Shown: one piece after another, positions 9,932-52,728 of the stretch | Position numbering within the stretch: the first letter of the stretch is position 1 | Layout: each line of letters opens with the position of its first letter | Assembly: GCA_018715125.1 (NCBI GenBank) | Contig: DVMF01000083.1 | Span: 1-64,000 of the forward strand | DNA from: Candidatus Coprousia avicola | Lineage (GTDB): Bacteria; Actinomycetota; Coriobacteriia; Coriobacteriales; Coriobacteriaceae | Reading direction: 5' to 3' | Length of the DNA stretch: 64,000 nt | The notes under the pieces: generated by a model | Databases searched by the model: none | Told to the model about the DNA's origin: nothing | The model's input: only the letters and a program-made list of their open reading frames with translations | Program-made: the position numbers and the translations under genes

Positions 9932-10144
9932 AGATTGTCGTCCAAGATTGGTTGCAGAGGGAAAGCTCAGCCCAGACCCAAGGCGCGGTTCAAGCGCATA
10001 CCGGCCACGGTAGCGCGCCGTGGCAGACGTGCCCAGCTGGTATGATGAGAGCAAGCTGTGGGGCGGGCCTCAATTCTGCCTCGCGGCGTATAGGTACGGT
10101 TGGGCGGCCGCGCGGGCGCGGTGGCTCTCTGCACGGAGGGCACC

Positions 10145-12985
10145 ATGGGCAAGGGGACTCGCAACATAGCTAAACAGCTCGGGCGTATGCGCTTGGGGCT
10201 GATCCTGCTCGTCTTCTTTGTGGCGCTCGCCCTCGTGGGCGGGCAGATTCTGCGCTCGACCCTCCTGCAGAACGCGCACGAGTCCAACACCGCCCTCTCG
10301 CGCTACTATGCCGCAGAAACCAACAGCTCGCTCACCATGTACCGCGCCCTGTTGGAGTTTGGCACCGAGTCACTCGACTCCCGCAACGAGCAGGGCAACA
10401 CGTGGGAGGAGCTCGAGCGGTGGGTGCGCCTGTTCTGCACGCGCCTGCGCTCGGTGCTGGGTGACGAGGCTATCAACGTGTACGGCGTGGTTGACGGAAC
10501 GCCGCTTACGGTAGGCGATTGGGATGAGATGGCGGGCACCGGGGGAGGCGCGACGGGCATCTCGGCAGACACCTCGACCGGCGCCTCGGCAGACACTGCC
10601 ACCGATGCGTTGCCCGCCATCGATGTCACCACGCGCGAATGGTATCGGGCGGCCATGGCAACGCCTGGCGAGACCGTGTTTACCGACGTGTATGAGGACG
10701 CCCTCACCGGGCAGAACGTGGTGACCGTGGCATGCGCCGGCAGTACGGGCAACGTGGTCTTGGCGTTTGACCTGTACCCCGAGAACTTCGTCTTCCAATA
10801 CGAGCAGCAGGACTTGCCGGAGGGTGCCTCGTTCTTCTTGTGCGACGGTGTGGGGAACATCCTCTACAGCGAGACGTCGCTCACCCATGAGGACGGGCTC
10901 GACGCCTACGTACTCGAGCTCGTCCACCGCATCGAGGCGGGCGAGCTCGAAGACGCCACCTCGTACGTGGTCGATCTCGACGGGCGCGAGCGCGCCGTCG
11001 ACTACAGCCGGCTCGCCAACGGCTGGTACTCCATCGTTACGGCGCCGCGCGCGGTCATTTTGGGGCGACTCCAGTCGGTCGGGGTGCTGTTTGGCATCAT
11101 GGTCGCGCTGTTTGCGGTGCTTCTGGGCGCGCTCGCCGTGCGCGACATGCGCCGCGCCCGCACCATGGAGCGCACCAACGAGACCGTGCGCGTGCTGGGC
11201 AACAGCTACTACGCCATCTACCTCGTCAATTACGAAGAGGGCACGTACGAGATGATCAAGGGCTCCGACTACGTGCGCCGGCGCATCCCCAAGCGCGGGC
11301 CGTACGAGAGCCTGCTGCGCACCGCCGCCGAGGTGATCGAGCGCGACACGTTTGAGGAGTTTGAAGAGAGCTTCTCGGCCGATAACATCCGTATGCTGGT
11401 GGCGGGCCGTGTGCGCGACTACGGCGGCGACTTCCAGCGGCGCTTTGGTGACAGCTACCGCTGGGTCAACGTGCGGGTGCTCTACGACGAATCGCTCGAT
11501 CCGGAGGAAGTGGTGCTGTGCTTCCGCGAGGTCGACCAGGAAAAGCAGCGTCAGCTGCAGGAGCGCCACTATTTGGAGGAGGCGCTCGAGAGCTCGCGCG
11601 CGAGCATCAAGACGCGCCAGGCGTTCTTTAACAACATGAGCCACGACATGCGCACGCCGCTCAACGGCATCATCGGTCTGACGGAGCTGGCGCGGGCGCA
11701 TACGGACGACCCCGCCGCGGTGGCCGGGTACCTCGACCGCATCGACCGCTCGAGCAAGCAGCTGCTCGCGCTCATCAACGACATTCTGGACGTAGCCCGC
11801 ATGGAGCAGGGGAGCGTCTCGCTTGCTACCGAGCAGATGGATCTGACGCAGGTGATTGACGACTGCGCCGAGCCGTTCCGTCTGCAGGCGGCGCGCGAGG
11901 GCAAGTCGTTTGAGCTTTCGTGCGACGTCGCCGACGCCCACGTGCTGGGCGACCCTCTGCGCATCAGCCAGGTGCTCAACAACCTGCTCTCCAACGCGCT
12001 CAAGTACACCGATCCGGGCGACGCGGTTCACGTGCACGCCGAGCAGCTGAGCGACGCCGAGGCCGAGGGCGGTGTGGCGACGTACCGCATCACCGTGAAG
12101 GACACGGGCATTGGCATGAGCCCGGAGTTTTTGGAGCACCTGTTTGACCTGTACGCGCGCGAGCAGCGGTTTGGCACGCGCGAGACCGTGGGCACGGGCC
12201 TGGGGATGCCCATCACCAAGAACTTGGTGGAGCAGATGGGCGGCACGCTCGAGGTGCAAAGCGGGGTCGACCAGGGGAGCACATTTACCGCAACGGTGCC
12301 GTTCGCCGTGGTGGCGGAGGGTGCGCATGCGGGCGATGCGGTGCCCGGCCCGGCGGGTGGGAGTGCGGTGGCCGCTGCCGATGCGGTGCCGGCCGCCGCG
12401 GAGGCCGCGTCTCCCGGGGGCGCCGCTGGGGCTGCCCCGCGCCCCCGCACCGACACCGCCCCGCGCCCCGCAGCCTCGGCTACGTCGCATGTCGCGGCGC
12501 CGGCACCTACGGCAGAGGAGCTTCTGGCATCGCTTGCCGGCAAGCGCGTGCTGGTGGCAGAGGACAACGCCATCAATATGGAGATCGCAACCGAGATGCT
12601 CGGCATGGCGGGGCTCGAGACCGCGCGTGCCTGGAACGGGCGTGAGGCGGTCGACGCCTTCGCCACGAGCGCACCCGGTTACTTTGACGCGGTGCTGCTC
12701 GATATGAAGATGCCCGAGATGGATGGCTGCGCGGCGGCCCGCGCCATTCGCGCACTCGATCGGCCGGATGCGATTGCCGTGCCGCTTGTTGCCGTGACGG
12801 CTAACGCGTTTGCCGAGGACATCGTCGCCACCACGGCCGCGGGTATGGACGCGCACGTCTCGAAGCCCATCGATTTCAGTTTGCTCTGCCAGACACTGGC
12901 AGAGCTCATGGCGGCGCGGGGCGACGCCGAGGCGCAGGCGGCTGGCGGGTCTTCGCAGCCCGCACGCGGCGGTGATGCCGGATGA
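10145..12985 (+). CDS. Hybrid sensor histidine kinase (HisKA-HATPase-REC)
   Basis: 946 residues. The ATG at 10145 follows GGAGGG by 5 bp. Residues about 15-40 form a first membrane helix. An extracytoplasmic sensor of about 270 residues follows (Cache-like by length and position; ligand unknown), then a second helix near 310-335 and a cytoplasmic PAS-like region. The H-box is SHDMRTPLNG with the phospho-accepting His at about 500. The N-box is NNLLSNALKYTD, and the G-boxes are DTGIGMS and GTGLGM. An Ala/Pro-rich linker leads to a C-terminal receiver domain with VLLDMKMPEMDG, Asp at about 853. A hybrid kinase needs an Hpt partner, and a lone Hpt gene is the fourth gene of this operon. The stop overlaps the next ATG by 4 bp (ATGA). 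Confidence 0.93.
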   Translation: MGKGTRNIAKQLGRMRLGLILLVFFVALALVGGQILRSTLLQNAHESNTALSRYYAAETNSSLTMYRALLEFGTESLDSRNEQGNTWEELERWVRLFCTRLRSVLGDEAINVYGVVDGTPLTVGDWDEMAGTGGGATGISADTSTGASADTATDALPAIDVTTREWYRAAMATPGETVFTDVYEDALTGQNVVTVACAGSTGNVVLAFDLYPENFVFQYEQQDLPEGASFFLCDGVGNILYSETSLTHEDGLDAYVLELVHRIEAGELEDATSYVVDLDGRERAVDYSRLANGWYSIVTAPRAVILGRLQSVGVLFGIMVALFAVLLGALAVRDMRRARTMERTNETVRVLGNSYYAIYLVNYEEGTYEMIKGSDYVRRRIPKRGPYESLLRTAAEVIERDTFEEFEESFSADNIRMLVAGRVRDYGGDFQRRFGDSYRWVNVRVLYDESLDPEEVVLCFREVDQEKQRQLQERHYLEEALESSRASIKTRQAFFNNMSHDMRTPLNGIIGLTELARAHTDDPAAVAGYLDRIDRSSKQLLALINDILDVARMEQGSVSLATEQMDLTQVIDDCAEPFRLQAAREGKSFELSCDVADAHVLGDPLRISQVLNNLLSNALKYTDPGDAVHVHAEQLSDAEAEGGVATYRITVKDTGIGMSPEFLEHLFDLYAREQRFGTRETVGTGLGMPITKNLVEQMGGTLEVQSGVDQGSTFTATVPFAVVAEGAHAGDAVPGPAGGSAVAAADAVPAAAEAASPGGAAGAAPRPRTDTAPRPAASATSHVAAPAPTAEELLASLAGKRVLVAEDNAINMEIATEMLGMAGLETARAWNGREAVDAFATSAPGYFDAVLLDMKMPEMDGCAAARAIRALDRPDAIAVPLVAVTANAFAEDIVATTAAGMDAHVSKPIDFSLLCQTLAELMAARGDAEAQAAGGSSQPARGGDAG

Positions 12986-14193
12986 GGCGCAGCGACACCC
13001 TCGGCTCCCGCTATAGGCGTTTCTGCGCGCGCCGGCGCCGCTTCTTTACCGAGGACTACCCGCGCGTGATAGAGCGGAACTTTCGCAACGTGCGCGCCGC
13101 GTGCCTGATGGCCTGCGCCATCGCGGCGCTCTTTACCCCCGTGGCGGCGCTCTGCGTCCCCGCGTGGCACCCGAGCGTCGCCCACTATGCGCTCGCGCCT
13201 ATCGCGCTTGTGCTCTACGGGCTGATGAGCGTGGCGTCGCCCCGCTTGGCAACACGCCCCTGGGCTGCGGCGGCGGCGTGTCTGGTGGTGGAGGCGCTGC
13301 TGCTTGTAGCCATCGGTCTTCTCGATACGGTTTTTGCCGCAGGGCGCGTGGGCGTGCTCACACAGCCCGTCGGCATTGGCCTCGGGGTGCTCATCGCCAC
13401 ACCGTGGGGGCTGCCGCTCGGCGTGCTCGGACTGACCGATGCTCTCTTTGTGGCGCTCTCGTTTGCGACCAAGCCGCTCGCCGCCGCCGAGACCGACCTC
13501 TTCTCGGTGTGCGTGGGGTTTGTGGTCGCCATCGCCGTTGCCCAGCTCGCCCTCGGGCTGCGTCTGCAGGACTTTGACGCCCGCGAGCGCTATCGCGAGC
13601 TCTCCGAACGCGACGCCCTCACGGGGCTCCTCAACCGCGGCGCGCTGGCGGCGGCTGCGGCGCGACTGATCGGCTCCGATGCGGAGCAGGCTTCTGGCGG
13701 GCGGTCCGGTGCGCACGCCAGCGCGCCCGTCAGCCTCATCATGGTGGATATCGACGCCTTTAAGCAGGTTAACGACAACTACGGACACGATGCCGGCGAT
13801 GACCTGCTCCGTACCATGGGCGACATTCTGCAGGCGTCGTTTCGCGCGACCGACGCCGTCGGGCGCTTTGGGGGCGACGAGTTCATGGTCATCGCGCCCG
13901 GGCTCACGGACCCCGCCGTCGCGCGCGCCAAGCTCGCCCGCGTGCAGGCCGCCTTTGGCGAGCGCGGCTCGCACCAGGTAGGCGCGCCCGTCTCGTGCAG
14001 CTGCGGCGTGGCGGTGGCGCCGGCGGGCGCCGCGTCGTTCGAGCGGTTGTTCCGTGCGGCGGACGAGGCGCTGTATGAGGTGAAGCGCGCCGGCAAGGGA
14101 AACGTTGCCGTGCGAGAATATACAGAGCGGGAGCCGGGGGAGGACCGCCGGCGCCGCGGAGAGGGAGGCGAGGCCGTTGCCAGAGAGCGATAA
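12982..14193 (+). CDS. Membrane diguanylate cyclase (GGDEF)
   Basis: 403 residues, translationally coupled to the kinase. Several hydrophobic helices fill residues about 35-190 and show no recognised sensor family. The GGDEF domain occupies the C-terminal half. The active site is intact (FGGDEF, residues 297-301) and so is an RxxD inhibitory site (RATD, 288-291) five residues before it, as expected of an active, feedback-inhibited enzyme that makes c-di-GMP from two GTP. The next gene in the operon encodes the opposing phosphodiesterase. The start is the only sensible one given the 4-bp overlap. Confidence 0.92.
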   Translation: MRRSDTLGSRYRRFCARRRRFFTEDYPRVIERNFRNVRAACLMACAIAALFTPVAALCVPAWHPSVAHYALAPIALVLYGLMSVASPRLATRPWAAAAACLVVEALLLVAIGLLDTVFAAGRVGVLTQPVGIGLGVLIATPWGLPLGVLGLTDALFVALSFATKPLAAAETDLFSVCVGFVVAIAVAQLALGLRLQDFDARERYRELSERDALTGLLNRGALAAAAARLIGSDAEQASGGRSGAHASAPVSLIMVDIDAFKQVNDNYGHDAGDDLLRTMGDILQASFRATDAVGRFGGDEFMVIAPGLTDPAVARAKLARVQAAFGERGSHQVGAPVSCSCGVAVAPAGAASFERLFRAADEALYEVKRAGKGNVAVREYTEREPGEDRRRRGEGGEAVARER

Positions 14194-15331
14194 CCTCGAC
14201 AAGGGCGCGGGCACGCTGCTCATCGTCGACGACGATGCCATCAGTCGTACCATATTGGCCGCGCTGTTTGAGGGCGACTACCGCATTGTGGAGGCGCAGG
14301 ACGGCGCCGCCTGCCTCGACGCGATCGAGCGCGAGGGAGACGCGGTGGTGGCGCTCCTGCTCGACGTGATGATGCCCGGCATCGACGGGCTTGAGGTGCT
14401 TAAGCGCCTTGCCCCCACAGGGTTTCTTGCGCGCACGCCGGTCTTCCTCATTACGGCCGAGCGCACCGCCAAGGTGATGGAGGAGGCCTATCGGCTCGGC
14501 GTGATGGACGTGATCGTCAAGCCCATCATCCCCTTTGTGGTGACGCGCCGCGTGCGGTCGGTCATCGAGCTGTTTGAGAGCCGCAAGCGCTTAAGCTCAA
14601 CCGTGGAGGACCAGCGCCAGCAGCTGCTCGAGCGCGCCGAGCGCATCATCGAGCTCAACGTCGGCATGATCGAGGCGCTCTCGACCGCCATCGAGTTTCG
14701 CGATGGCGAGAGCGGCGACCATGTGCGGCGCATCCACGATATCACGCATCTGGTGCTCTCCGAGACGCCGTTTGGGCAGGGCTACGCTGCCGAGGACATC
14801 GATGACATCGCGCTCGCCGCCATCATGCACGACGTCGGCAAGATCGCCATCCCCGACGCCATTCTGTGCAAGCCGGGGCGCCTCACGCGCGAGGAGTTCG
14901 AGGTCATGAAGTCGCACACCGTACAGGGGGCAGAGCTTCTGGAGCGTATCCCGCAGATGCGCAGCATGGGCGCGTACCGGTACGCTGTCGATATCGCCCG
15001 GCACCATCACGAGCGATGGGACGGGCGCGGCTACCCCGACGGCCTTGCGGGCGACGAGATCAGCGTGGCGGCGCAGGTGGTTTCGCTCGCGGACGTCTAC
15101 GATGCGCTGACCAACAAGCGGGTGTACAAAGCGGCGTTTACGCGCGAGGAGTCGCTCCGTATGATCGCGGACGGGGAGTGCGGCACCTTTAACCCCGAGC
15201 TCCTCTCATGTTTCTTTGCGGTGGAGCCGCAGGTCGCCGCCCTGTATCAGGTTCCCGCGGCCGATAGTGCACATAAGCCGGAGGGCGATGCCGTATCTGA
15301 TCCCCATACGACGATACCCCCTGTCAACTAA
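14177..15331 (+). CDS. Response regulator with HD-GYP phosphodiesterase output
   Basis: 384 residues if translation begins at TTG 14177, which follows GGGAGGCGAGG at 14163-14173. This start overlaps the cyclase gene by 17 bp and places the receiver domain about 12 residues in. Earlier in-frame codons would add a tail that fits neither the family nor a ribosome site. The receiver domain has LLLDVMMPGIDG with Asp at about 63. The output domain has HDVGKIAIPD (His/Asp at about 218-219) and HHERWDGRGYPDG (GYP at about 285-287), the signatures of a c-di-GMP-cleaving HD-GYP enzyme. Phosphorylation by the operon's kinase and Hpt would tune c-di-GMP breakdown; this is inferred from gene order. Confidence 0.93.
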   Translation: MPESDNLDKGAGTLLIVDDDAISRTILAALFEGDYRIVEAQDGAACLDAIEREGDAVVALLLDVMMPGIDGLEVLKRLAPTGFLARTPVFLITAERTAKVMEEAYRLGVMDVIVKPIIPFVVTRRVRSVIELFESRKRLSSTVEDQRQQLLERAERIIELNVGMIEALSTAIEFRDGESGDHVRRIHDITHLVLSETPFGQGYAAEDIDDIALAAIMHDVGKIAIPDAILCKPGRLTREEFEVMKSHTVQGAELLERIPQMRSMGAYRYAVDIARHHHERWDGRGYPDGLAGDEISVAAQVVSLADVYDALTNKRVYKAAFTREESLRMIADGECGTFNPELLSCFFAVEPQVAALYQVPAADSAHKPEGDAVSDPHTTIPPVN

Positions 15332-15342
15332 GGAGAACGGTC

Positions 15343-15693
15343 ATGGATCTTGCGGTACTGGAGCGGGCGGGCATCGATACGGAGGACGCCCTCAGCCGTG
15401 TTATGGGCAGCGAGGCGCTGCTCATGCGCCTGCTCAACACCTTTCTAGAGGACGATAACATGGCCAAGCTTGAGGCCGCTGCGGCCGCAGACGACGCGGA
15501 GGCGGGGCTCGAGGCGGCGCACGCGCTCAAGGGCGTGACGGGAACGCTCTCCATGACCGAGCTCTATGCCCTGACGTCGTGCCAGTGCGAGCTTATCCGT
15601 GCGGATGACTGGCCGGCGGCGCGGGCGCTCACGCCGGAGGTCGCAGAGGCGTACCGCAAGGTGGTTGCGGGCATTGGGGCGTGCGGGGAGTAG
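15343..15693 (+). CDS. Histidine phosphotransfer (Hpt) protein
   Basis: 116 residues, 11 bp after the HD-GYP stop, with AAGGAGAA upstream of the ATG. The motif AAHALKGVTGTLSM places the phospho-accepting His at about 60 inside a helical bundle, matching stand-alone Hpt domains in length and pattern. It completes a kinase-receiver-Hpt-receiver relay within one operon. Its expected partners are the receiver of the hybrid kinase (donor) and the receiver of the HD-GYP protein (acceptor). Confidence 0.9.
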   Translation: MDLAVLERAGIDTEDALSRVMGSEALLMRLLNTFLEDDNMAKLEAAAAADDAEAGLEAAHALKGVTGTLSMTELYALTSCQCELIRADDWPAARALTPEVAEAYRKVVAGIGACGE

Positions 15694-15752
15694 GCCCCGG
15701 GGGCTGCCCCCGCGCCTCGCATGGCTCCAAAGGGCGTGCGGGTGCCTATAAC

Positions 15753-15967
15753 TAACCCCCTCTGGACAAAACGTGCATCGAAATAATAAATGACCCCTCA
15801 TTGAGGGCCACCAGGGAGGCGTTGTCGCTCGATGTTCCGCCCCACTTGCCCCTTTTTCGCGGTTCGAGCGCCCGAAAAGAGGCCGTATCGCCTTTCGCAG
15901 GCGATTGCACGGCCGCTTTCTAGGGGGTTATTAATTATTTCGGTGCGTGATTTGTCCATAGGGGGTT
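15753..15967. repeat. Long imperfect inverted repeat (about 46-bp arms)
   Basis: The left arm (15753-15799) begins TAACCCCCTCTGGACAAAAC. The right arm (15922-15967) ends with its near complement, TTTGTCCATAGGGGGTTA. The arms match over most of 46-47 bp, including the AATAATAAATGA / TTATTAATTATT blocks. The 122-bp centre holds further short pairings (GCGATTGCA, GGCCGCTTTC) but no gene. The size and terminal repeats suggest a MITE-like element or a very long hairpin downstream of the Hpt gene. Confidence 0.75.
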
Positions 15968-16280
15968 AATTAATTACGGAATCGGGCGGCTCCAGCGGCC
16001 CGAGTTGATGCGACGCGAGGGGCGAAGCGCCTCGCGTCGTGTCACCAGCGGCGCCCCTCTTCCGGCTGCTTGTGAAGATTTGGGGCAGCGGATGATAGAC
16101 ATTAGACATATTATCCTATTATGAGCAAGATGCAGCTCGCCTCACCGACGAGAGTAGTCAAGAAACAACACCACCTAACAGGCTGGTTAGAAGTGGTATA
16201 AGAACAGTCAGAATCCCGTTAGGTGACTTACCGCTATCTGGCACCATGGTGGATAACTTCATGTAATCATCTTATGAATA
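15968..16280. other. AT-richer intergenic region with nested short inverted repeats
   Basis: No gene is supported. CACCTAAC (16172-16179) pairs with GTTAGGTG (16218-16225), and inside it CTAAC-AGGCTG-GTTAG forms a smaller hairpin. Composition is lower in G+C than the flanks. It lies immediately upstream of the first DUF559-like gene and may carry its regulation. Confidence 0.4.
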
Positions 16281-16286
16281 GTGCCC

Positions 16287-16298
16287 TATAGTACGGGC
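16287..16298 (+). promoter_or_regulatory. Possible -10 box giving a leaderless start
   Basis: TATAGT (16287-16292) ends 6 bp before the ATG at 16299, the spacing expected if transcription begins at the start codon. There is no ribosome site, and no convincing -35 is visible. The second DUF559-like gene has a -10-like hexamer at the same distance. Confidence 0.4.
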
Positions 16299-17336
16299 AT
16301 GAGCATCTGCGTGTACGGCATATCAGCTCTTGAGCTGTATCGGGCGAGCGGGAGGCTCCTCCCTGATTTGCTCGACGGGCCCCGGGTCAAGACCCTCGCG
16401 GGCCGCTCCCTGCCGCCGCGCGGCTTTCTTCAAGATGACATGGAGCGCGCCGGCGTGAGGACGCGGCCCTATCATGTGCTGGTCTCCGAACCTAATGCGT
16501 GGCGCGAGCGCGAAGACGTGGTGTGCCATAAGCTGTCCGGGAGCGTGCCGGGCGCGACGTACCTTCAGGCGGCCCGCGATCTGCTCGTGGTCTGCCCGGA
16601 GCTCATGTTTGTCGAGCTGGCTGCATCCGGCGCATACGATGTGCTCGATTTGGTGGAGATCGGCTACGAGCTTTGCGGGACCTATGTGCTGGACGGTTCG
16701 TGGGATGGCTTTACCATTACGAATCGGCAGATCGCCTATGCGGGCGGGCTGCGTGCGATGGGAGATGCGTGGAGTCCGCGCCGCGGGGCGCGGCTCGCGC
16801 GCGAGGCGGCGCGTCTGGTGCATAACGGGGCGCATTCCCCGATGGAGACGGTTGTCGCCATGTTGCTGTCGTATCCGCAGCGCTATGGCGGCCTCGGGCT
16901 CTCGTCGATCCAGCTCAACGTGCGCTGTGAAACCCCCGACGGGCCCCGCCATCCGGACATACTGATTCCGGAGGCGGGGGTGGTCGTCGAGTACAAGGGG
17001 CTGCGCTATCACAGCGCCGAGCAGGCCGCTCGCGATGACCGGCGGCAAAACGCCCTGGTGGGAGCGGGGTATGCGGTCATCAACGTATGGTACGAAGACG
17101 TGGTGGAGGGCCATCTGTACGAGCGGCTGGTTGCGAGCATCTTCCGCGCGCTGGGACGGCGCCATCGCCCGCGCGCCGCCGCCTTCGAGGCGAACCAGCT
17201 TCTCTTGCGGCATCGGCTGCTCCCGCGATTCCGCGCGCTGCAGGGTGGTTGCGATGCGCAGCGGGCGGGCGCGCAGGCACAAACGCGCGCCGGCGCCCCG
17301 CAGGGCGCCTTCGATGAATACCTCGACATCCCGTAA
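16299..17336 (+). CDS. DUF559-like protein with PD-(D/E)XK nuclease-fold C-terminus
   Basis: 345 residues from ATG 16299; GTG 16281 would add six residues but lacks support. The first 230 residues carry no family I can name. The C-terminal part (DGPRHPDILIPEAGVVVEYKGLRYH, written here as two runs: DGPRHPDILIPEAG and VVVEYKGLRYH, then RDDRRQNALVGAGY) resembles Vsr/DUF559 proteins, in which D...E-x-K residues form a nuclease core. A second family member lies at 25761. Neither is in a restriction operon. Possible roles include defence, DNA repair or a mobile-element accessory; substrate and activity are unknown. The gene converges with pilT, separated by a shared hairpin. Confidence 0.7.
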   Translation: MSICVYGISALELYRASGRLLPDLLDGPRVKTLAGRSLPPRGFLQDDMERAGVRTRPYHVLVSEPNAWREREDVVCHKLSGSVPGATYLQAARDLLVVCPELMFVELAASGAYDVLDLVEIGYELCGTYVLDGSWDGFTITNRQIAYAGGLRAMGDAWSPRRGARLAREAARLVHNGAHSPMETVVAMLLSYPQRYGGLGLSSIQLNVRCETPDGPRHPDILIPEAGVVVEYKGLRYHSAEQAARDDRRQNALVGAGYAVINVWYEDVVEGHLYERLVASIFRALGRRHRPRAAAFEANQLLLRHRLLPRFRALQGGCDAQRAGAQAQTRAGAPQGAFDEYLDIP

Positions 17337-44006: not shown

Positions 44007-44789
44007 ATGGCCGAGACCGTGCTCATCGCCGAGGATGATCGGGATATCGTCGAGCTGCTCACCCTGTATCTTACCGGGAGCGGCTACGAGGTCGTCTCCG
44101 CGCCGGATGGCGTGCGGGCGCTCGAGCTCGTGCGCGAGCGGCATATCGATGTGGCGCTCGTGGACATCATGATGCCGCGCATGAACGGCTACGACTTCAT
44201 CAAAGCGCTCCGCGCGCAGAGCGACATCCCTGTGATCATCGTTTCGGCACGCACCATGGCAGCCGATCGCATCGTGGGTCTCGACGCGGGTGCGGACGGC
44301 TACATCACCAAGCCGTTCGACCCGCTTGAGGTCACGGCGTACATCAGAGCGGTGCTCCGCCGCCACACGGCGGGCGGCGTCGCGTCGGGGGAGGGCGTCT
44401 CGGGCGCTGCCGCGGCAGACGGGCACGCCGCGTCTGCCGGGACAGGCGGCGCAGATGGTGCGGCAGACGCGCCGCGCTCTTCCCGCGTGGCTTTCCTTAC
44501 CTGCGGCGATCTTGCGTTCGATGTGGAACGGCTCGTCCTCACCAAACGCGGTGAGCCCGTGGCGCTCACCGCTGCCGAGCTCAAGATCATGGCGGCCTTC
44601 ATGGCGGCGCCGGGCCGTGTTTTCAGCAAGGACCAGCTCTACGCCTGCGTCAACGGCGAGCCCGCGGCGGGCGGGGGCAGCAGCGTGATGGTGCACATCT
44701 CAAACATCCGCGCCAAGCTCGAAGATGACCCGCTCTGGCCGCGCTACATCGTTACCGTCCGCGGTCTTGGGTATCGGCTCGATGGCTAG
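44007..44789 (+). CDS. OmpR/PhoB-family response regulator
   Basis: 260 residues. Receiver domain with AEDDRDIVELL (acidic pocket), phospho-accepting Asp53 in VALVDIMMPRMNGYDF, then VSART and KPFDPLEV (conserved Lys). A Gly/Ala-rich linker of about 45 residues, longer than usual, joins a winged-helix domain: ALTAAELKIMAAFMAAPGRV, HISNIRAKLEDDP, YIVTVRGLGYRLDG. Its last 8 bp overlap the sensor kinase gene. The gene pair sits directly upstream of the dlt-like operon in the same orientation, so control of that operon is likely; the decamer array at 43601 is a candidate binding site. Confidence 0.94.
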   Translation: MAETVLIAEDDRDIVELLTLYLTGSGYEVVSAPDGVRALELVRERHIDVALVDIMMPRMNGYDFIKALRAQSDIPVIIVSARTMAADRIVGLDAGADGYITKPFDPLEVTAYIRAVLRRHTAGGVASGEGVSGAAAADGHAASAGTGGADGAADAPRSSRVAFLTCGDLAFDVERLVLTKRGEPVALTAAELKIMAAFMAAPGRVFSKDQLYACVNGEPAAGGGSSVMVHISNIRAKLEDDPLWPRYIVTVRGLGYRLDG

Positions 44790-46476
44790 CCCCGAGCGCC
44801 GTGTGCGCGCCCAAACGCCTGCGGGCGCCCGCGCCCGCGCATGGGCCGGGAGCCTGCGCGCGGCGGCGGGCGCGGTCTCGTCGAGCCTCACCGCCCGCCT
44901 GCTCGGCGTCATCGTGGTCTACGCGGCGGCCGTCGCGCTCGTGCTCGCGCTGGCGGGGGAGGCGAGCGATGCGCTGTTCACCAACGCGTTTCCCACTATG
45001 GACGCGGTCCTCGCGCACGCCGACGATCTTGCAGACGACCGCTTTTCCGCCTTGCAGGGGCCTGACCTCGCCCATGGGGGCATCGTGGTCTTCGACGAGC
45101 GCGGCGCGCGCCTCTACGCCTCGAGCGAGAAGGCCGCCGACAACATCCGCCCGAGCCTGCTCCCCTTCATCAACGATTACGCGGAGCGCTCGTTTTACGA
45201 GGTCTTTCAGGAGGATGCCGACGGTGCGTGCCGATACCGCATCCTGTTGTGCTCCTACGTCGCCTCCGATGACTACGCCAAGCAAATCGACGCCGAGGCC
45301 GAGCTCGACGAGAACCTCAACATCATCGGGGGAGACCTGTTCCCCGGTCGAGCGGCGCTCACGCAGCGCGAGTTCAACTTCATCAAGGGCGTCTACGATG
45401 CGCAGAAGTCGGTCGAGCGCTATGACTACGCGACCGCGACGGGCGAGGCGCGCACCCTGGTGCTCGTGGCGCCCCGCGTGAGCGCGGAGGCCTACAACCT
45501 GGTGCTCGACAAAAGCGGGCAGATTGCGTTCTATGTCGTGCCCGTGCTCGTCGTGCTCACGGTGGCGGCCGCATGGGTGCTCGTTCGCCTGGTGCGCGGC
45601 GCGGTTCGTCCGCTCGACCGTGCCATCGACGCCTATCGGTCGGCGGGCGCGGCGCCGGGCGGAGGGGCCGCGCCGGTCGAGCGCGCCGCGTCGGCCACGG
45701 TCCGTCGCGTCCCCTCCGCCGAAAGCGTGCCGCGCGAGCTCATGCCAACGTACCGCAACTTCACCAGCCTTATGGACCGCCTGCGCGCCGCCCAGAACGA
45801 GCGCCAGCGCCTCATCGCCGACGTTTCGCACGACCTCAAGACGCCGCTCACGGTGATCAGCGGATACGCGCAGGCCTTCAACGAGGGAGTCGTCCCGCCG
45901 GAGAAGGAGCGCGACTACCATCGCGCCATGCATGACAAGGCGCTCGCCGCGAGCCGGCTCATCGACACCCTCGGCGAGTACGCGCGCATGGAGCACCCCG
46001 AGGCGGTGCACGAGCTCGAGGAGGTCGACCTTGCCGCCTTCGTGCGCGAGGTGGCGGCCGAAGCGCTGCAGCAGGTCGAGCAGGCGGGCAACACCTTTGC
46101 GTGCGAGGCTGAGGGGCATGCCGTAGTGCGTATCGACCGGCAGCTCTTCCGCCGCGCGCTCCTCAACCTCATCGAGAACGCCTGCGTGCACAACGATGCC
46201 GGCATAGCGGTGCGCGTTGCGGTGGAGGCTCCCGACGGGTGCGCCGTGCGCGTATCGGTGGCAGATACCGGTGCAGGGGTTCCCGCGGACCTTGCGCCGT
46301 ACGTCTTCGAGCCTTTTGTGACCGAGAACACCGCCCGCACGCCTCGGGGCGGTACGGGCCTCGGCCTTGCCATCGTGCGGCGCGCGGTGGAGGTCATGGG
46401 CGGTACGGTGCGTCTGGTTGAGCACCCCGAGGCGCCATGGGCGACGGCCTTTATCATCGAGCTGCCCCGCGCGTAA
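44782..46476 (+). CDS. Sensor histidine kinase paired with 44007
   Basis: 564 residues from the ATG overlapping the regulator stop. TM1 (LLGVIVVYAAAVALVLALAG) and TM2 (FYVVPVLVVLTVAAAWVLVR) frame an extracytoplasmic domain of about 190 residues. A HAMP-like linker follows. The H-box is ADVSHDLKTPLTVISGY (His350). The N-box is NLIENACVHND, and the G-boxes are DTGAGVP and GGTGLGLAIV. It is a classical membrane kinase of the envelope-sensing kind. The signal is unknown; cationic peptides or cell-wall stress would fit a dlt-linked system. Confidence 0.93.
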   Translation: MASPERRVRAQTPAGARARAWAGSLRAAAGAVSSSLTARLLGVIVVYAAAVALVLALAGEASDALFTNAFPTMDAVLAHADDLADDRFSALQGPDLAHGGIVVFDERGARLYASSEKAADNIRPSLLPFINDYAERSFYEVFQEDADGACRYRILLCSYVASDDYAKQIDAEAELDENLNIIGGDLFPGRAALTQREFNFIKGVYDAQKSVERYDYATATGEARTLVLVAPRVSAEAYNLVLDKSGQIAFYVVPVLVVLTVAAAWVLVRLVRGAVRPLDRAIDAYRSAGAAPGGGAAPVERAASATVRRVPSAESVPRELMPTYRNFTSLMDRLRAAQNERQRLIADVSHDLKTPLTVISGYAQAFNEGVVPPEKERDYHRAMHDKALAASRLIDTLGEYARMEHPEAVHELEEVDLAAFVREVAAEALQQVEQAGNTFACEAEGHAVVRIDRQLFRRALLNLIENACVHNDAGIAVRVAVEAPDGCAVRVSVADTGAGVPADLAPYVFEPFVTENTARTPRGGTGLGLAIVRRAVEVMGGTVRLVEHPEAPWATAFIIELPRA

Positions 46477-46881: not shown

Positions 46882-48552
46882 ATGCAGGCGAACACCGACG
46901 CCCCTCAGGCGACGGAGCGACATCATGCGCAAGGCATCTGGCGCCATCTGGCGCTGCGGTATCTGGAGCGGAGCGCCGCGCGGTGTCCGGACAAGGTGGC
47001 GGTGGTTGACGAGGAGGGCTCTCTCACCTACGGGCGGCTCTATGGGCGCGTCTGCCGGGCCGGTACGACGCTTGCGGCGCGCGGGCTCGGCGGACGTCCG
47101 GCCATCGTCTTTGCCGACAAGGGTATCGACACCCTCGTCGCCTTTTTGGGCGTGCTGGCGGCGGGCGGTTGCTACGTGCCCGTCGATCCGGGTGTTCCGG
47201 ATGAGCGGGCGGTCGGCATCGCCCGCGCGCTCGGCGAGTCCTTCGTGCTCGCGCGGACATCGGACGTAGCGCGTGCCCGCGTACTCTTCGCGGGGCAAGA
47301 GATAGTCACGTATGCCGAGCTCGACGCGGTAAAGCCCGATGACGGCCTGCTTTCGTCGTGTGCCGCGCTCACCGTTGACGCCGACCCCGCCTACGTGCTC
47401 TTCACCTCTGGATCGACGGGCGAGCCCAAGGGCGTGGCCGTCAGCCACCGCGCGATCGTGGATTTCATCGACGCCTTTGTCGGGGCGTTCGGCATCGATG
47501 CAGATGACGTCATCGGCAATCAGGCGCCTTTTGATTTCGATGTGTCCGTCAAGGACATCTACGGTTCGCTGGCGGTGGGCGCCGAGCTCGTCATCCTGCC
47601 GCGCCGGCTCTTCTCGCGCCCGGCCGAGCTTATGGAGGCGCTTGCCGCGCACCGCGTGACCACGCTTATCTGGGCATCCGCAGCGCTCTGTTTGCTCTCG
47701 CGCCTCCATGGGCTGGAGTATCGGGACCTGCCGCATGTGCGGTTCGTGATGTTTAGCGGCGAGGTCATGCCCCTTCCGCACCTCGAGCGCTGGATGGAGC
47801 GGTTGCCACGCGCGACCTTTGTGAATCTCTACGGCCCCACCGAGTGCACCTGCAACTGCCTCTACCACGTAGTGGACCGCGCGCGTGCATATGCGGAGGG
47901 GCTGCCGCTCGGGAACCCCTTCGCCAACCGGCGCGTCCTGGTGCTCGACGAGGCGGGCCACCCCGTGGCGCGCCCCGGCGCCGTCGGCGAGCTCTATATC
48001 GGCGGTTCGGGCATTGCCCTCGGCTACGTGGGAAATCCGGCCCGTACGGCGCGGGCCTTTGTGCAGAACCCGCTGCGTGCCAACCTGCCCGAGATCCTCT
48101 ATCGCACGGGAGATCTCGTGCGCGTGGGTGCGGACGGCGAGCTCTTTTTCTGCGGGCGCACCGACAACCAGGTGAAGCTCATGGGCCATCGCGTCGAGCT
48201 CGAAGAGATCGACGCCGCCTTTGAGCGCCAGCCGGGGGTCGAGCGCTGCCGGTGCGTCTTCGATGCCCGGCGCGAGCGCATCCGCGCCTGCTTCGAGGGC
48301 TCGGCCGAGGTTGCCGAGCTCCGCGCAGGCGTGGGGAGATGGCTGCCCGCACCGCTTATTCCGACCGAAATCGTCAGGGTCGAGGGTATGCCGCTCACCA
48401 AAAACGGCAAGGTCGACCGCGCACGCCTGCTCGCGCTCGCGCCTGCGGGGCGAACACGGGCGCACGGGGCGACTTCCAACCCGCCCGCGTCCGCCGGCCC
48501 TGCCCGCAGGAGTCCCCAAGAAGGAGGTTCCGATGGAACGAATTCTCGTTGA
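46882..48552 (+). CDS. dltA: DltA-like amino-acid adenylating enzyme
   Basis: 556 residues; GGGAGG is 8 bp before ATG 46882. It activates an amino acid as an adenylate and loads it on the carrier encoded downstream. Motifs in order: LFTSGSTGEPKGVAVSHRAI (A3), NLYGPTECTC (A5), GELYIGGSGIALGY (A6), YRTGDLV (A7), GRTDNQVKLMGHRVELEEID (A8), and PLTKNGKVDR with the catalytic Lys (A10). QAPFDFDVSVKDIYGSL matches the DltA subfamily. D-Ala-specific DltA proteins have Cys in the FCGE motif that faces the substrate side chain; here it is MFSGEVMP, Ser292. With the adjacent decarboxylase, this makes a substrate other than D-Ala possible. The stop lies 23 bp inside the next gene. Confidence 0.85.
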   Translation: MQANTDAPQATERHHAQGIWRHLALRYLERSAARCPDKVAVVDEEGSLTYGRLYGRVCRAGTTLAARGLGGRPAIVFADKGIDTLVAFLGVLAAGGCYVPVDPGVPDERAVGIARALGESFVLARTSDVARARVLFAGQEIVTYAELDAVKPDDGLLSSCAALTVDADPAYVLFTSGSTGEPKGVAVSHRAIVDFIDAFVGAFGIDADDVIGNQAPFDFDVSVKDIYGSLAVGAELVILPRRLFSRPAELMEALAAHRVTTLIWASAALCLLSRLHGLEYRDLPHVRFVMFSGEVMPLPHLERWMERLPRATFVNLYGPTECTCNCLYHVVDRARAYAEGLPLGNPFANRRVLVLDEAGHPVARPGAVGELYIGGSGIALGYVGNPARTARAFVQNPLRANLPEILYRTGDLVRVGADGELFFCGRTDNQVKLMGHRVELEEIDAAFERQPGVERCRCVFDARRERIRACFEGSAEVAELRAGVGRWLPAPLIPTEIVRVEGMPLTKNGKVDRARLLALAPAGRTRAHGATSNPPASAGPARRSPQEGGSDGTNSR

Positions 48553-49777
48553 GCACCCGCTGGGCGACGACGCGCTCCGCCTGTTCGCGAGCGCATACGG
48601 CACCCCGCTCTATCTGTACGACGCGCGCTCGGTAGTCGACCGGGTGCGCCGCCTTCGCGAGGTGCTGCCGAGCGGCATCGAGCTGTGCTACGCCATGAAG
48701 GCGAACACCTTTCTGCTGCCTGAGGTGGCCTCGCTGGTAAACCGCGTCGAGGTCTGCTCGCCGGGCGAGCTGCGCATCTGCCGCGCGCTCGATATTCCCA
48801 CCGGCCAGATCGTGGTCTCTGGCGTCTATAAGGACGATCAGACCGTTGACGAGGCCCTCGCGCACCGCGCGCTGCCCGCTGCCGTGACGGTGGAGTCGGC
48901 GGCCCAGCTCGACCTCGTCGCGCGCGCGGCCGCGGCCCGCGGGGTGCGGGTGCCCGTGCTCCTGCGCGTGACGAGCGGCAACCAGTTTGGACTCGACCCC
49001 GATGAGCTGCCCGGGATCATCCGGCGCCTCGGCGAGGCACCCCATCTGGAGCTTCGCGGCCTGCAGTTCTTCTCGGGCACGCAGAAGACGTCGCTCAAGC
49101 GCATCGCCCGCGAGGTCGCCCGCCTCGACGAGCTCATCGCACGTCTCGAGGAGGCCACGGGCCAGGCGATTGCCGAGCTCGAGTACGGCCCCGGCCTGCC
49201 TGTCTCGTACTTTGCCGGCGACGACTTCGATGAGGACGCCTACCTGGCCGCGTTCTCCGGCATGCTCGCCGGTATGGCCTTTGGGGGCCGGATCACCCTC
49301 GAGCTCGGGCGCAGCCTCGTGGCGAGCTCGGGCACCTACCTGACAAGCGTGGTGGACACCAAGGTCAACCGCGGTCAGCGCTATGCCATCGTGGACGGCG
49401 GCATGCACCAGCTCGTCTATTACGGGCAGTCGATGGCCATGCGGCAGCCGCATGTGCGCGTGCTGGGGCGCGAGGGTGTCCCCGGTGCTGGCTCGCAGGA
49501 GGGCGAGGGCGCCGATGCTTGCCGGTGGACGGTGTGCGGGGCGCTCTGCACCGTGAACGACCTCATCGTCAAGCAGGCGCAGCTGGGCGCGTTGGAGCCG
49601 GGAGACATACTCGCCTTCGCCAACGTGGGCGCCTATAGCGCCACCGAGGGCATCGCGCTGTTTTTGAGCCGCGACCTGCCGCGCGTCGTGCGCATCGGGT
49701 TCGACGGCACCGCCGAGCTCGTCCGCGACGGCCTCGGCACCGATGTCCTCAACACGCCGCTGCCCTCCCTGCCGTAG
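48530..49777 (+). CDS. Fold-III PLP decarboxylase (LysA/BtrK-like) in the dlt-like operon
   Basis: 415 residues; AAGGAGG is 6 bp before ATG 48530, which overlaps the end of dltA. Residues TPLYLYDARSVVDRVRRL and LCYAMKANT (PLP Lys57) open an alanine-racemase-type barrel; VEVCSPGELRICRALDI follows. LELGRSLVASSGTYL and VVDTKVNRGQRYAIVDGGMH match the C-terminal decarboxylase domain, and the active-site Cys/Asp and Tyr are CGALCTVND (Cys340) and VGAYSATEG (Tyr369). The DAP-decarboxylase HIGSQ block is FFSGTQ here, arguing against a true LysA. Relatives act in specialised pathways, including BtrK, which decarboxylates glutamate bound to a carrier protein. The position between dltA and dltC suggests action on the loaded or free amino acid. 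The exact substrate is unknown. Confidence 0.82.
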   Translation, partial: PMERILVEHPLGDDALRLFASAYGTPLYLYDARSVVDRVRRLREVLPSGIELCYAMKANTFLLPEVASLVNRVEVCSPGELRICRALDIPTGQIVVSGVYKDDQTVDEALAHRALPAAVTVESAAQLDLVARAAAARGVRVPVLLRVTSGNQFGLDPDELPGIIRRLGEAPHLELRGLQFFSGTQKTSLKRIAREVARLDELIARLEEATGQAIAELEYGPGLPVSYFAGDDFDEDAYLAAFSGMLAGMAFGGRITLELGRSLVASSGTYLTSVVDTKVNRGQRYAIVDGGMHQLVYYGQSMAMRQPHVRVLGREGVPGAGSQEGEGADACRWTVCGALCTVNDLIVKQAQLGALEPGDILAFANVGAYSATEGIALFLSRDLPRVVRIGFDGTAELVRDGLGTDVLNTPLPSLP

Positions 49778-49862
49778 CGGGAGGCACGCCTGGCACTTCT
49801 TGTAGCCGATACAGCGCGGCCGCTGCGCGAGAAGCGGCACCATCACTTGAGGAGGAAACATT

Positions 49863-50096
49863 ATGGACGCGATTCTCGACATTCTGGAAGACCTCAGGCC
49901 CGGTGAGGATTACCGCGGCAGAACCGACCTCGTGGATGCGCGCATCCTCGACTCGCTCACGATCCTCGCCCTCGTCTCGGAGCTCGAGGACACCTTTGAC
50001 ATCGCTATTCCGGCGGTGGAGATCGTGCCGGAGAACTTCAACTCGCTTGCCGGGATGCAGGCGATGGTGGAGCGGCTCCGCGCCGAGGAGCGCTAG
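49863..50096 (+). CDS. dltC: DltC-like acyl carrier protein
   Basis: 77 residues with TGAGGAGGAAACATT before the ATG. This small acidic carrier has the phosphopantetheine Ser31 in RILDSLTILALVSELEDTFD, matching carrier proteins of the Dlt type in length and helix pattern. It would receive the aminoacyl group from the DltA-like enzyme and present it to the MBOAT protein at the membrane. It follows the decarboxylase gene by 85 bp. Confidence 0.92.
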   Translation: MDAILDILEDLRPGEDYRGRTDLVDARILDSLTILALVSELEDTFDIAIPAVEIVPENFNSLAGMQAMVERLRAEER

Positions 50097-50117
50097 GCGC
50101 CGGTACGGGGGTAATCG

Positions 50118-51713
50118 GTGAACTCGTACTTCTCGATAGCGGTGATCGGGGCGTTCCTGCCGGCTGTTGTGCTCGTCTACGCTCTGGCGCCCCGTCGCGT
50201 GCGCCCGGTGGTGCTGCTCGCGGCGAGCTACCTCTTCTTCTGGAGCATCAGCGGCGCGCTTCTTGTCTTCTTGTTGGTCTCGACCGTAAGCGTCTGGGCG
50301 CTCGGCTTGCTGCTGGGGCGCTTGCAGACGCGCCGCCGCGGCGCTCTCGCCGTGCCGGGCTGCGACCGCAAGGCGTGCCGCCGCTTTTATCGCCGCGCTA
50401 TGCGCGGGGTGGTCGCGGCGGGCGTGATCCTGAACATCGGTATCCTGATTGCCCTCAAATACCTCGGCTTTTTTGCCCGTATCGCGCAGCCGCTCCTCGC
50501 GCTCATCGGCATTGCCGCCGATGGGCCGGGCACGCTCGGCACTATCGGCGTGCCCATCGGCATCTCGTTCTACACGCTGTCGGCGGTAAGCTATCTCGTG
50601 GATGTGTATCGCGAGGGGACCGCGCCCGATCGCAACCTGGGTCGCCTCGCCCTGTTCCTCGCGTTCTTCCCGCAGATTATGGAAGGCCCCATCTGCCGCT
50701 ATCGGCAGAGCGCTTCCGCACTGTGGGAGGGACGGCCCGTCGTAGCGCACAACCTCTATAGGGGCGGGATGCGCATACTCTGGGGCCTAGCTAAAAAGCT
50801 CATCGTGGCCGACCGCGTCAACCTGTTTGTCAAAACTGTCTTCGATGCCGGCGCGACCTACGACGGCGGGGTGATCGCGCTCGCCGCGGTGCTCTATACC
50901 GTCCAGCTCTATTGCGATTTTTCCGGCACCATGGACTTTGCGGTGGGGGCCGGGCAGATGTTTGGCGTGGAGCTCCCCGAGAACTTCCGCCAGCCGTTCT
51001 TCTCGCGCACCGCCGCGGAGTTCTGGCAGCGCTGGCACATCACGCTCGGCAGCTGGTTTCGCGATTACGTGTTCTATCCCGTGTCGCTGTCCGCACCGGT
51101 CAAGCGTCTGACGGGGGCGGCGCGGCGCGTCCTCGGCAACCGGATGGGCCCGCTCGCAGCGAGTGGTGTGGCGCTCGCCGCTGTCTGGCTCTGCAACGGC
51201 CTGTGGCATGGGGCGGGTGGCCAGTACGTGCTCTTCGGCCTGTACTACTTTGTGCTCATCTGGGGCGGCGGCCTTATGGGGCCCGTGGCGGAGCGCTTCT
51301 GCGCCGCGGTGGGTATCGACCACAACGGCCGCGCATGGCATGCCTGGCAGCGGGCGCGCACGCTCGCGGTGGTCTTTGTGGGCGAGCTCATCTTCCGTGC
51401 CCCGGGCGGCACAGCGGCGCTCGCTATGGTGGCGCGCCTTGTGGGAGGGTTCACCCTCGCGTCCTTCCGCGACGGGACGGTGCTCTCGCTCGGTATGGAC
51501 GCGGCCGACTTTGCCGCGGTGGGGGCGTTTTGCGTCGCGCTGTTTGTCGTGGGGTTGCTTCGCGAGCGCGGCACGCGCCTTTTTGGGCGCATGTGGGCGG
51601 CGCATCCGGTGGCTCGCGTCACGGTGATGGTATGCCTGGCGCTCACCGTGGTCGTATTTGGTGCGTATGGGGCGGGATACCAACCCGTCGACCCTATGTA
51701 TGCGCAGTTCTAG
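50118..51713 (+). CDS. dltB: MBOAT acyltransferase, DltB-like
   Basis: 531 residues; GTG start, 21 bp after the carrier gene. About ten or more membrane helices. MBOAT blocks: GTIGVPIGISFYTLSAVSYL, AFFPQIMEGPICRY, DFSGTMDFAVGAGQMFGVEL, FWQRWHITLGSWFRDYVFYP, and LCNGLWHGAGGQYVLFGLYY with the invariant His364. DltB moves the D-alanyl group across the membrane toward teichoic acids. This protein is longer than typical DltB (about 400) and closer in length to AlgI-type MBOAT proteins, because of extra C-terminal helices. The acceptor polymer is unknown. Confidence 0.9.
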   Translation: MNSYFSIAVIGAFLPAVVLVYALAPRRVRPVVLLAASYLFFWSISGALLVFLLVSTVSVWALGLLLGRLQTRRRGALAVPGCDRKACRRFYRRAMRGVVAAGVILNIGILIALKYLGFFARIAQPLLALIGIAADGPGTLGTIGVPIGISFYTLSAVSYLVDVYREGTAPDRNLGRLALFLAFFPQIMEGPICRYRQSASALWEGRPVVAHNLYRGGMRILWGLAKKLIVADRVNLFVKTVFDAGATYDGGVIALAAVLYTVQLYCDFSGTMDFAVGAGQMFGVELPENFRQPFFSRTAAEFWQRWHITLGSWFRDYVFYPVSLSAPVKRLTGAARRVLGNRMGPLAASGVALAAVWLCNGLWHGAGGQYVLFGLYYFVLIWGGGLMGPVAERFCAAVGIDHNGRAWHAWQRARTLAVVFVGELIFRAPGGTAALAMVARLVGGFTLASFRDGTVLSLGMDAADFAAVGAFCVALFVVGLLRERGTRLFGRMWAAHPVARVTVMVCLALTVVVFGAYGAGYQPVDPMYAQF

Positions 51714-51753
51714 CAGGTGCGGTCGTCTGACCGTCGATGCGTAAGGAGTAACA

Positions 51754-52728
51754 ATGCAGCGATTGGGGCGCCCGGTGCGCTTGCTCGCCTGGGGCGCTGT
51801 TGCCGCAGCGCTCATGTGCGCGGTGCTTGCGCTGGCATCGCATGTGGTGATGCCCAAGAACAACCAGGCCGCGTTCGGGCAGATCGATGCCGCCGCAAAC
51901 GGGGTGCTGGGGGAGCGCGCAGACTCTCTCGACGTACTCTTCGTCGGCGATTCCGAGACGTACCATTCGTTCTCGCCCCTCCAGATGTGGGGCGAGCGTG
52001 GGATTGCCTCTTATGTGTGCGCTACGAGCGCCCAGCGGCTGCCCTATACGCGCACGTTGCTGTGCCGTGCCCTTACGCGGCAGCGCCCGCGGATCGTGGT
52101 GCTCGAGACCCATTGCATTTTTGCGGGCTTCGATGAGGAGGATGAGGCGCTGCGCGCGCTCAAGGACCTCTTTCCGGTCTTCGAGTACCATAACCGCTGG
52201 AAGAGCCTCACCCTCGGCGATATCACCGGGTCGGTGCGTTTCACGTGGACCGACCCGCTCAAGGGGTTCACCTTAAAGAGCGCTACCGAGGTGCGCGCCG
52301 CCGACGCATCGGGTTACATGGCCCCCTCAAGCGAGCTTGAGGACCTGCCGGCGCGCAACCGCCGCGTCCTCGAGGACATCAAAGCCATCTGCGACGCGCA
52401 CGGCGCCAAGCTGGTGCTCGTGAGCACCCCGAGCACCGTCAACTGGTCGATGCCCAAGCACAATCGGATGGTCGCGGTGGCGCGCGAGCTCGGGGTCGAC
52501 TATTGGGACCTCAACACGGGGGATACCAAGGTCGACATCGATTGGCAGACCGAGACCTGCGACGGGGGAGACCATCTCAACCTCTCCGGGGCCCAGAAGG
52601 TGTCCAGCCGGATGGCGGCCCTGCTGAGCGACACGTACCGGATGCCCGACCATCGTGAGGACGATGCCTACAGCGATTGGGACGAGGCGTATACGAGCTA
52701 CGGCCGTCAGTTGGCGGCGCTCGCCTGA
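51754..52728 (+). CDS. DltD-like SGNH-fold membrane-anchored protein
   Basis: 324 residues; AAGGAGT precedes the ATG. An N-terminal membrane helix (LLAWGAVAAALMCAVLAL) anchors an extracytoplasmic domain with VLFVGDSETYHSFSP (nucleophile Ser67) and DGGDHLNLSGAQKVS (Asp273, His274), the SGNH triad positions. It occupies the DltD slot but is shorter than DltD and closer to AlgX/SGNH proteins that accompany MBOAT acyltransferases. It probably completes transfer of the acyl group to the outer polymer. It is the last gene of the operon. Confidence 0.82.
   Translation: MQRLGRPVRLLAWGAVAAALMCAVLALASHVVMPKNNQAAFGQIDAAANGVLGERADSLDVLFVGDSETYHSFSPLQMWGERGIASYVCATSAQRLPYTRTLLCRALTRQRPRIVVLETHCIFAGFDEEDEALRALKDLFPVFEYHNRWKSLTLGDITGSVRFTWTDPLKGFTLKSATEVRAADASGYMAPSSELEDLPARNRRVLEDIKAICDAHGAKLVLVSTPSTVNWSMPKHNRMVAVARELGVDYWDLNTGDTKVDIDWQTETCDGGDHLNLSGAQKVSSRMAALLSDTYRMPDHREDDAYSDWDEAYTSYGRQLAALA

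Follow-up and report, generated by a model that had tools for sequence, protein, structure and literature searches.

An adenylation-decarboxylase-carrier operon joined to MBOAT and SGNH proteins, with a possible role in omega-amino acylation of surface polymers

Why should a decarboxylase gene lie inside what otherwise resembles an operon for D-alanylation of the cell surface (dlt)? The question is raised by a locus of Candidatus Coprousia avicola (Coriobacteriaceae; assembly GCA_018715125.1; 2.42 Mb, 96.6% complete) at positions 46882-52728 of the window, i.e., the whole 64,000-nucleotide stretch analysed here (contig DVMF01000083.1, positions 1 to 64,000 of the forward strand). An initial annotation had listed five same-strand genes at this locus, encoding a DltA-like adenylating enzyme, a fold-III pyridoxal phosphate (PLP) decarboxylase, a carrier protein, an MBOAT and an SGNH protein, and had proposed that an acidic amino acid is decarboxylated on the carrier and then attached to a surface polymer. 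We show, based on Pfam matches, third-position GC and conserved residues, that the five genes are present, and that they form a genuine, conserved and apparently undescribed operon, which appears to be a variant of MBOAT-SGNH envelope polymer acylation. The genes are co-directional in the order A-DEC-CP-MBOAT-SGNH, with the following features:

46882-48552, + strand: A, stand-alone amino-acid adenylating enzyme (556 aa; PF00501 AMP-binding, 1.4e-70; TIGR01733 above cut-off)
48533-49777, + strand: DEC, fold-III PLP decarboxylase (414 aa; PF02784 and PF00278, i.e., Orn_Arg_deC_N and Orn_DAP_Arg_deC)
49863-50096, + strand: CP, carrier protein (77 aa; PF00550 PP-binding)
50118-51713, + strand: MBOAT acyltransferase (531 aa, GTG start; PF03062)
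51693-51710, + strand: C-terminal acyl-shuttle hexapeptide PMYAQF of the MBOAT, with Tyr528 (motif defined in PMC12148441)
51754-52728, + strand: SGNH-type extracytoplasmic transferase (324 aa; N-terminal membrane helix, GDSE serine, DGGDH block)

The overlap already noted between the first two genes amounts to 20 nt, and the remaining intergenic gaps are about 86, 22 and 41 nt. GC at the third codon position is 0.80-0.89 in the frame of each gene, as real genes should show in a genome of 66% GC. We consider it probable that an acidic amino acid is loaded through its side chain, decarboxylated while bound to the carrier, and transferred via the shuttle tyrosine and the SGNH protein to a surface polymer. 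The broader proposition, that teichoic-acid-like polymers are decorated with omega-amino acids (beta-alanine or gamma-aminobutyric acid, GABA) by a widespread, undescribed pathway, adding a third type of surface chemistry to D-alanylation and O-acetylation, seems to us evenly balanced between right and wrong.

Relatives of DEC were sought in 84,980 species genomes, where at least 536 were confirmed, and the best 80 loci were read. The exact five-gene order was found in 66 of these 80, the other 14 having mainly truncated contigs, a displaced SGNH gene, or duplicated MBOAT/SGNH genes, and such recurrence of one gene order argues that the operon is a selected unit and not a product of chance. 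DEC directly follows A in nearly all operon loci. The hosts span Actinomycetota and Bacillota and are mostly gut bacteria; among the best 80 loci they include Coriobacteriia (Collinsella, Enorma, Thermophilibacter, Olsenella, Eggerthellaceae), Clostridia (Oscillospiraceae, Lachnospiraceae, Ruminococcus bromii, Acetobacterium) and Erysipelotrichia. At the family level, the decarboxylase is present in 14 of 67 Coriobacteriaceae genomes and in 38 of 200 sampled genomes of the Catenibacillus family (Lachnospiraceae). No description of this gene combination, or of GABA or beta-alanine on teichoic acids, was found in the open-licence literature. One operon (L072) lies in record JAKTNI010000001.1, labelled 'Streptococcus suis strain SSHP-D', whereas all other hits belong to Clostridia, Coriobacteriia or Erysipelotrichia; this label, or the assembly, may be wrong. 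Two further loci show expanded layouts, with two MBOAT-SGNH pairs beside a single A-DEC-CP set (L122) and with four consecutive SGNH copies (L083), which suggests that a single putative acyl donor might serve several acceptors.

The active site of DEC appears to be of the BtrK type, not of the LysA type. Its PLP lysine is K56 (codon 48698-48700), which is invariant across the family together with E257, R260 and C339, and its motifs are F-SGTQ, ELGR and LCT-ND, the last including C339. The DEC family and BtrK alike carry [FY]-GTQ, QFG, DGG[MI][HN] and LC[TS]-ND, where LysA, the diaminopimelate decarboxylase (DAPDC), has HIGSQ, KFG, an arginine after D-G-G or D-A-A, and CE. In a tree of 20 rows, some with long branches, DEC grouped with an exosortase decarboxylase, BtrK and a type III PLP enzyme of Streptomyces, and was split from LysA with support of 98/97. 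Identity with LysA was thus ruled out by motifs and tree, while a racemase was not favoured since DEC has the decarboxylase domain at its C-terminus as well as Cys339. The LysA model TIGR01048 gave DEC 169 bits (cut-off 298), and the best NCBIfam match, the exosortase-type decarboxylase TIGR03099, was likewise below cut-off. By sequence and fold, the best solved relatives were the BtrK structures 2j66/7ru7, with about 22% overall identity to BtrK; other close folds were SbnH, which acts on citryl-diaminopropionate, and a D-Orn/D-Lys decarboxylase. The predicted structure of DEC has a mean pLDDT of 89, and the predicted structures are consistent with the assigned folds.

The source genome holds one further fold-III PLP enzyme (G000:C75), 28% identical to DEC and with the DAPDC-kind motif CENND. 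The characterised Burkholderia AfcP was not among the matches listed from the plasmid collection, these being exosortase-type and Streptomyces enzymes instead. A divergent Lachnospiraceae locus (L136; G178:C118, 4713-8057, - strand) has a DEC-family decarboxylase fused, in a single frame of 1114 aa, to a linker and a membrane helix as well as to bacterial Ig-like domains and a transglutaminase-core domain, and its MBOAT ends in FIYNQF.

The label 'DltA-like' for A, given by the initial annotation, holds only in part. An adenylating enzyme with weak DltA similarity is indeed encoded, but it falls far under the cut-offs of the DltA models TIGR01734/PRK04813 (275 bits, cut-off 560 for TIGR01734), and its pocket is not that of DltA. 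A belongs to the general adenylation-domain family, its best solved relatives are adenylation domains of nonribosomal peptide synthetases, e.g., LgrA, and the label needs qualifying. For the pocket, 77 homologues were aligned with six DltAs that related Coriobacteriia encode in their dlt operons, and specificity positions were mapped by motif onto PheA numbering. The residues (PheA number in brackets) are D220 (235), V221 (236), K224 (239; codon 47551-47553), S292 (301), L316 (322), C324 (330) and N325 (331), all invariant or nearly so, whereas the corresponding DltA residues are D, L, F/Y, C, T, V and A. K224 and S292 occur in 77/77 homologues, against F/Y and C in 6/6 DltAs; solved DltAs show the same pocket Cys (FCGE) in alignments. 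Even divergent Lachnospiraceae members retain K224, including L136 with its altered pocket, while Met occupies this position in two DltAs of Lachnospiraceae.

Adenylation domains that activate Glu or aminoadipate have K or R at this pocket position, which we take as a lead only, and a pocket lysine would be expected for a substrate with a second carboxylate. Known beta-Ala-specific codes lack the pocket Asp that usually contacts the amine, whereas A keeps Asp220. Compared with the VinN pocket (Asp230, Ser299/Arg331), Asp220 and Ser292 of A may be equivalent and Asn325 seems to lie near the Arg position.

CP carries its phosphopantetheine serine, S31, in a DSL motif (codon 49953-49955), and S31 and L32 are kept in at least 97% of 64 homologues. 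It scored well under the DltC models (19 bits vs cut-off 52 for TIGR01688, 32 vs 68 for PRK05087), as did the MBOAT under the DltB model TIGR04091 (153 bits, cut-off 375). The MBOAT, the sole PF03062 match in the source genome, exceeds the DltB of relatives by about 130 residues; H307 and H364 are kept in at least 97% of 76 homologues, and Y528 is conserved too. Among 77 near-complete homologues from the 80 loci, all end in ..Y..[FY] and 76 in [PF]xYAx[FY], position 1 being mostly Pro, versus the Phe of FXYXXF. By its sequence, this hexapeptide matches the motif that acts as acyl shuttle in DltX and in PatA. The A-DEC-CP genes are also paired with another MBOAT subfamily, ending in GGFMYANF or GGFIYAQF (L033, L139, L140, L142, L145), so that the trio recurrently partners shuttle-bearing MBOATs. 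In the SGNH-type protein, S67 (GDSE) and D270 and H274 (DGGDH) are kept in at least 97% of 76 homologues, although Pfam and NCBIfam searches returned no match for it; DltD (PF04914) was not found in the source genome.

In the Dlt pathway, DltB moves D-Ala from DltC to the Tyr of FXYXXF in DltX, from where it passes to DltD (PMC12148441). PatA has the shuttle motif fused to its MBOAT, and fused systems are said to be without a carrier protein, as acyl-CoA is the donor (PMC12148441). With CP encoded in the operon and PMYAQF on the MBOAT, the present system would join a fused shuttle to a carrier-protein donor.

From gene content and order, conserved residues, the A pocket, the DEC motifs and the shuttle, all read from sequence, we infer the following scheme, with its substrate, its sequence of loading and decarboxylation, its acceptor and its effect on charge. 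A would adenylate Asp or Glu at the side-chain carboxyl and load it onto the phosphopantetheine of CP, with Asp220 binding the alpha-amine and Lys224 as candidate contact of the alpha-carboxylate. DEC would then strip the alpha-CO2 on the carrier, leaving a beta-alanyl (from Asp) or GABA (from Glu) thioester. The MBOAT would pass the acyl group across the membrane to Tyr528 of its own hexapeptide, from which it would move to Ser67 of the SGNH protein and on to an ester on the surface polymer, with the free amine outside. The acceptor would most likely be similar to lipoteichoic or wall teichoic acid. Carrier-bound decarboxylation with MBOAT-dependent surface acylation, the core of the original proposal, withstood all the sequence tests made and is consistent with the pocket Lys of A, the BtrK-type motifs of DEC and the described trios, but two of its details change. 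The MBOAT would not be the final enzyme, since its own hexapeptide should hand the group to the SGNH protein; and the acyl group is to be drawn as joined through its carboxyl, with the amine left free, not as joined by the amine.

As to the substrate, we favour Asp giving beta-alanine over Glu giving GABA. The operon lacks the second ligase or amidohydrolase that protects the amine in known GABA or beta-amino pathways, and a free GABA thioester would be prone to cyclise. In known macrolactam pathways, a second ligase protects the amine. AfcQ/AfcP/AfcK, on the other hand, convert Asp to beta-Ala without a second ligase, and this system also elongates (PMC12186527); by analogy, short beta-Ala oligomers are conceivable on the product of the operon.

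Regulation and acceptor were examined through the neighbouring genes. A two-component system adjoins the operon:

44007-44789, + strand: response regulator (PF00072 and PF00486)
44725-46476, + strand: sensor histidine kinase of the same system (PF00512 and PF02518), ending about 406 nt upstream of A

A related response regulator and histidine kinase pair adjoins the operon in 33 of the 68 loci with enough flank, and the adjoining system is likely the regulator of the operon. Genes downstream are mostly unrelated; nothing recurs among them except two-component systems and a small number of LtaS-like genes. LtaS-like sulfatase-family genes stand beside the operon at L113 and L080 and beside A-DEC-CP at L138, and the source genome encodes two polytopic LtaS-like proteins. 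At L113 (Dorea phocaeensis, 12028-16467) and L138 the adjoining LtaS-like protein has a GBS_Bsp repeat; L113 additionally holds a nucleotidyltransferase and a choline-binding CAP protein, and its gene content suggests a possible choline-teichoic-acid cluster. Elsewhere in the window, a hybrid histidine kinase, a GGDEF protein and a response regulator with HD domain follow one another at 10100-15331, possibly a cyclic-di-GMP signalling cluster, and a 1994-aa open frame at 3263-9247, which has an MBG_2 domain close to the end, is likely to encode a large surface protein.

Several observations weigh against our scheme. BtrK leads the LysA structures by a small margin only, in overall score and in fold; equivalence of the A pocket with those of VinN and AfcQ is tentative; the invariant K224 could suit another polar substrate; LtaS-like neighbours at 3 loci only make a weak case for the acceptor; and DltD and DEC do not significantly exclude each other. 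The last point removes an argument, i.e., mutual exclusion with true dlt operons, which was dropped. Among the 67 Coriobacteriaceae genomes, 14 have DEC, 13 have DltD and none has both (p = 0.055, kinship ignored), a suggestive but not significant result, whereas no exclusion is seen in Lachnospiraceae, where DEC occurs in 38/200 genomes and 2 of the 8 strong DltD genomes share it. Three genomes outside Coriobacteriaceae carry both, and true dlt operons coexist with the DEC operon in G193 and G254. Such coexistence also bears on the idea that the operon performs ordinary D-alanylation, with A as a divergent DltA and DEC as an unrelated passenger, LysA or racemase. While the weak similarity of CP, MBOAT and A to the DltC, DltB and DltA models speaks for it, all three lie under curated cut-offs, Ser replaces the DltA Cys of position 301 in 77/77 homologues, position 239 is Lys, and DEC lacks the DAPDC signatures and follows A too regularly for a passenger, so we regard this idea as highly improbable.

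An order in which decarboxylation comes first, with DEC making free beta-alanine or GABA and A loading the ready omega-amino acid, would yield the same end product. Coupling through the A/DEC overlap fits either order, and the MBOAT/SGNH half would be unchanged; however, the invariant pocket Lys is hard to place with a single-carboxylate substrate. AfcQ loads L-Asp and clearly rejects free beta-Ala, the decarboxylation taking place on the carrier (PMC12186527), and a bolN mutant was not rescued by beta-Ala feeding (PMC7756342), which makes this order unlikely, though not negligible. Somewhat less probable is the loading of some other polar substrate, be it an amino acid or a diacid (e.g., diaminopimelate, aminoadipate, or a citryl-type or N-acylated compound), its far end being decarboxylated to give lysyl or other amine-bearing esters. 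Fold-III decarboxylases take many such compounds, and SbnH and the D-Orn/D-Lys decarboxylase are close folds, but the recognition Glu (CE) and Arg of DAPDC are absent from DEC and replaced as in BtrK. Finally, A-DEC-CP might make a soluble or lipid metabolite that MBOAT and SGNH proteins export or attach to a small acceptor instead of a polymer, as similar trios occur in antibiotic and lipopeptide pathways (PMC11284099, PMC12186527) and in exopolysaccharide clusters (L135). We think this hardly probable, given that the operon has no condensation, polyketide synthase or tailoring genes and that a shuttle-fused MBOAT with SGNH partner is the known layout for envelope-polymer acylation (PMC12148441).

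Current accounts of surface charge and cationic-peptide resistance in Gram-positive bacteria rely almost wholly on D-alanylation (Dlt) and on lysinylation (MprF). Should carrier-bound decarboxylation followed by transfer to a surface polymer be confirmed, many gut species would have an additional, chemically different cationic decoration, likely hidden under annotation names such as DltA, LysA and MBOAT. A beta-alanyl ester is expected to be less labile than a D-alanyl ester. The operon would moreover unite two modules known apart, i.e., decarboxylation on a carrier, as in antibiotic pathways, and acylation of polymers across the membrane.

Compared with known systems, the operon shares with Dlt a stand-alone A enzyme, a carrier, an MBOAT, a Tyr hexapeptide, an SGNH-type transferase and, often, an adjoining two-component system. 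It differs in having a decarboxylase, an A pocket not of the D-Ala type, a shuttle peptide fused to a longer MBOAT in place of a separate DltX, and an SGNH protein that is not DltD (no PF04914). In contrast, dlt operons of related Coriobacteriia encode a DltB some 400 residues long, and such a C-terminal motif lies on a small open reading frame of its own; at L128-L133, true Coriobacteriia dlt operons, a DltX-looking small frame beside dltC ends in VYAEF, AYAAY or similar. By these model scores, motifs and domain searches, the operon is not a Dlt system. PatA/PatB likewise have an MBOAT with its own C-terminal Tyr hexapeptide and an SGNH partner, but the donor of PatA is acetyl-CoA (PMC12148441), where the operon has A and CP. 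The exosortase-A-associated ligase (TIGR03098), decarboxylase (TIGR03099) and acyl carrier protein (ACP) share the gene order; DEC, however, is below the TIGR03099 cut-off, the A pocket differs, and no MBOAT/SGNH was present in the example read. In that type, at L135 (Sinorhizobium plasmid, 5337-8466), ligase, PLP decarboxylase and ACP stand in a row within a glycosyltransferase cluster. An A enzyme, a stand-alone carrier and a LysA-fold decarboxylase are shared with BtrJ/BtrI/BtrK (butirosin), VinN/VinL/VinO (vicenistatin), AfcQ/AfcK/AfcP (AFC-BC11) and BolO/BolC/BolN. Such trios convert Asp, 3-methyl-Asp or Glu thioesters to omega-amino thioesters (PMC12186527, PMC11284099, PMC7756342), VinN/VinO/VinL being a precedent for carrier-bound decarboxylation (PMC11284099), as are BtrK and BolO/BolN/BolC, although the action of BolN on a carrier-bound side-chain thioester is a proposal (PMC7756342). 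In BtrK-type trios the decarboxylase works on a carrier-bound acidic amino acid, and the DEC motifs are those of BtrK; yet these trios feed small-molecule antibiotics, whereas that of the operon is joined to MBOAT/SGNH envelope machinery.

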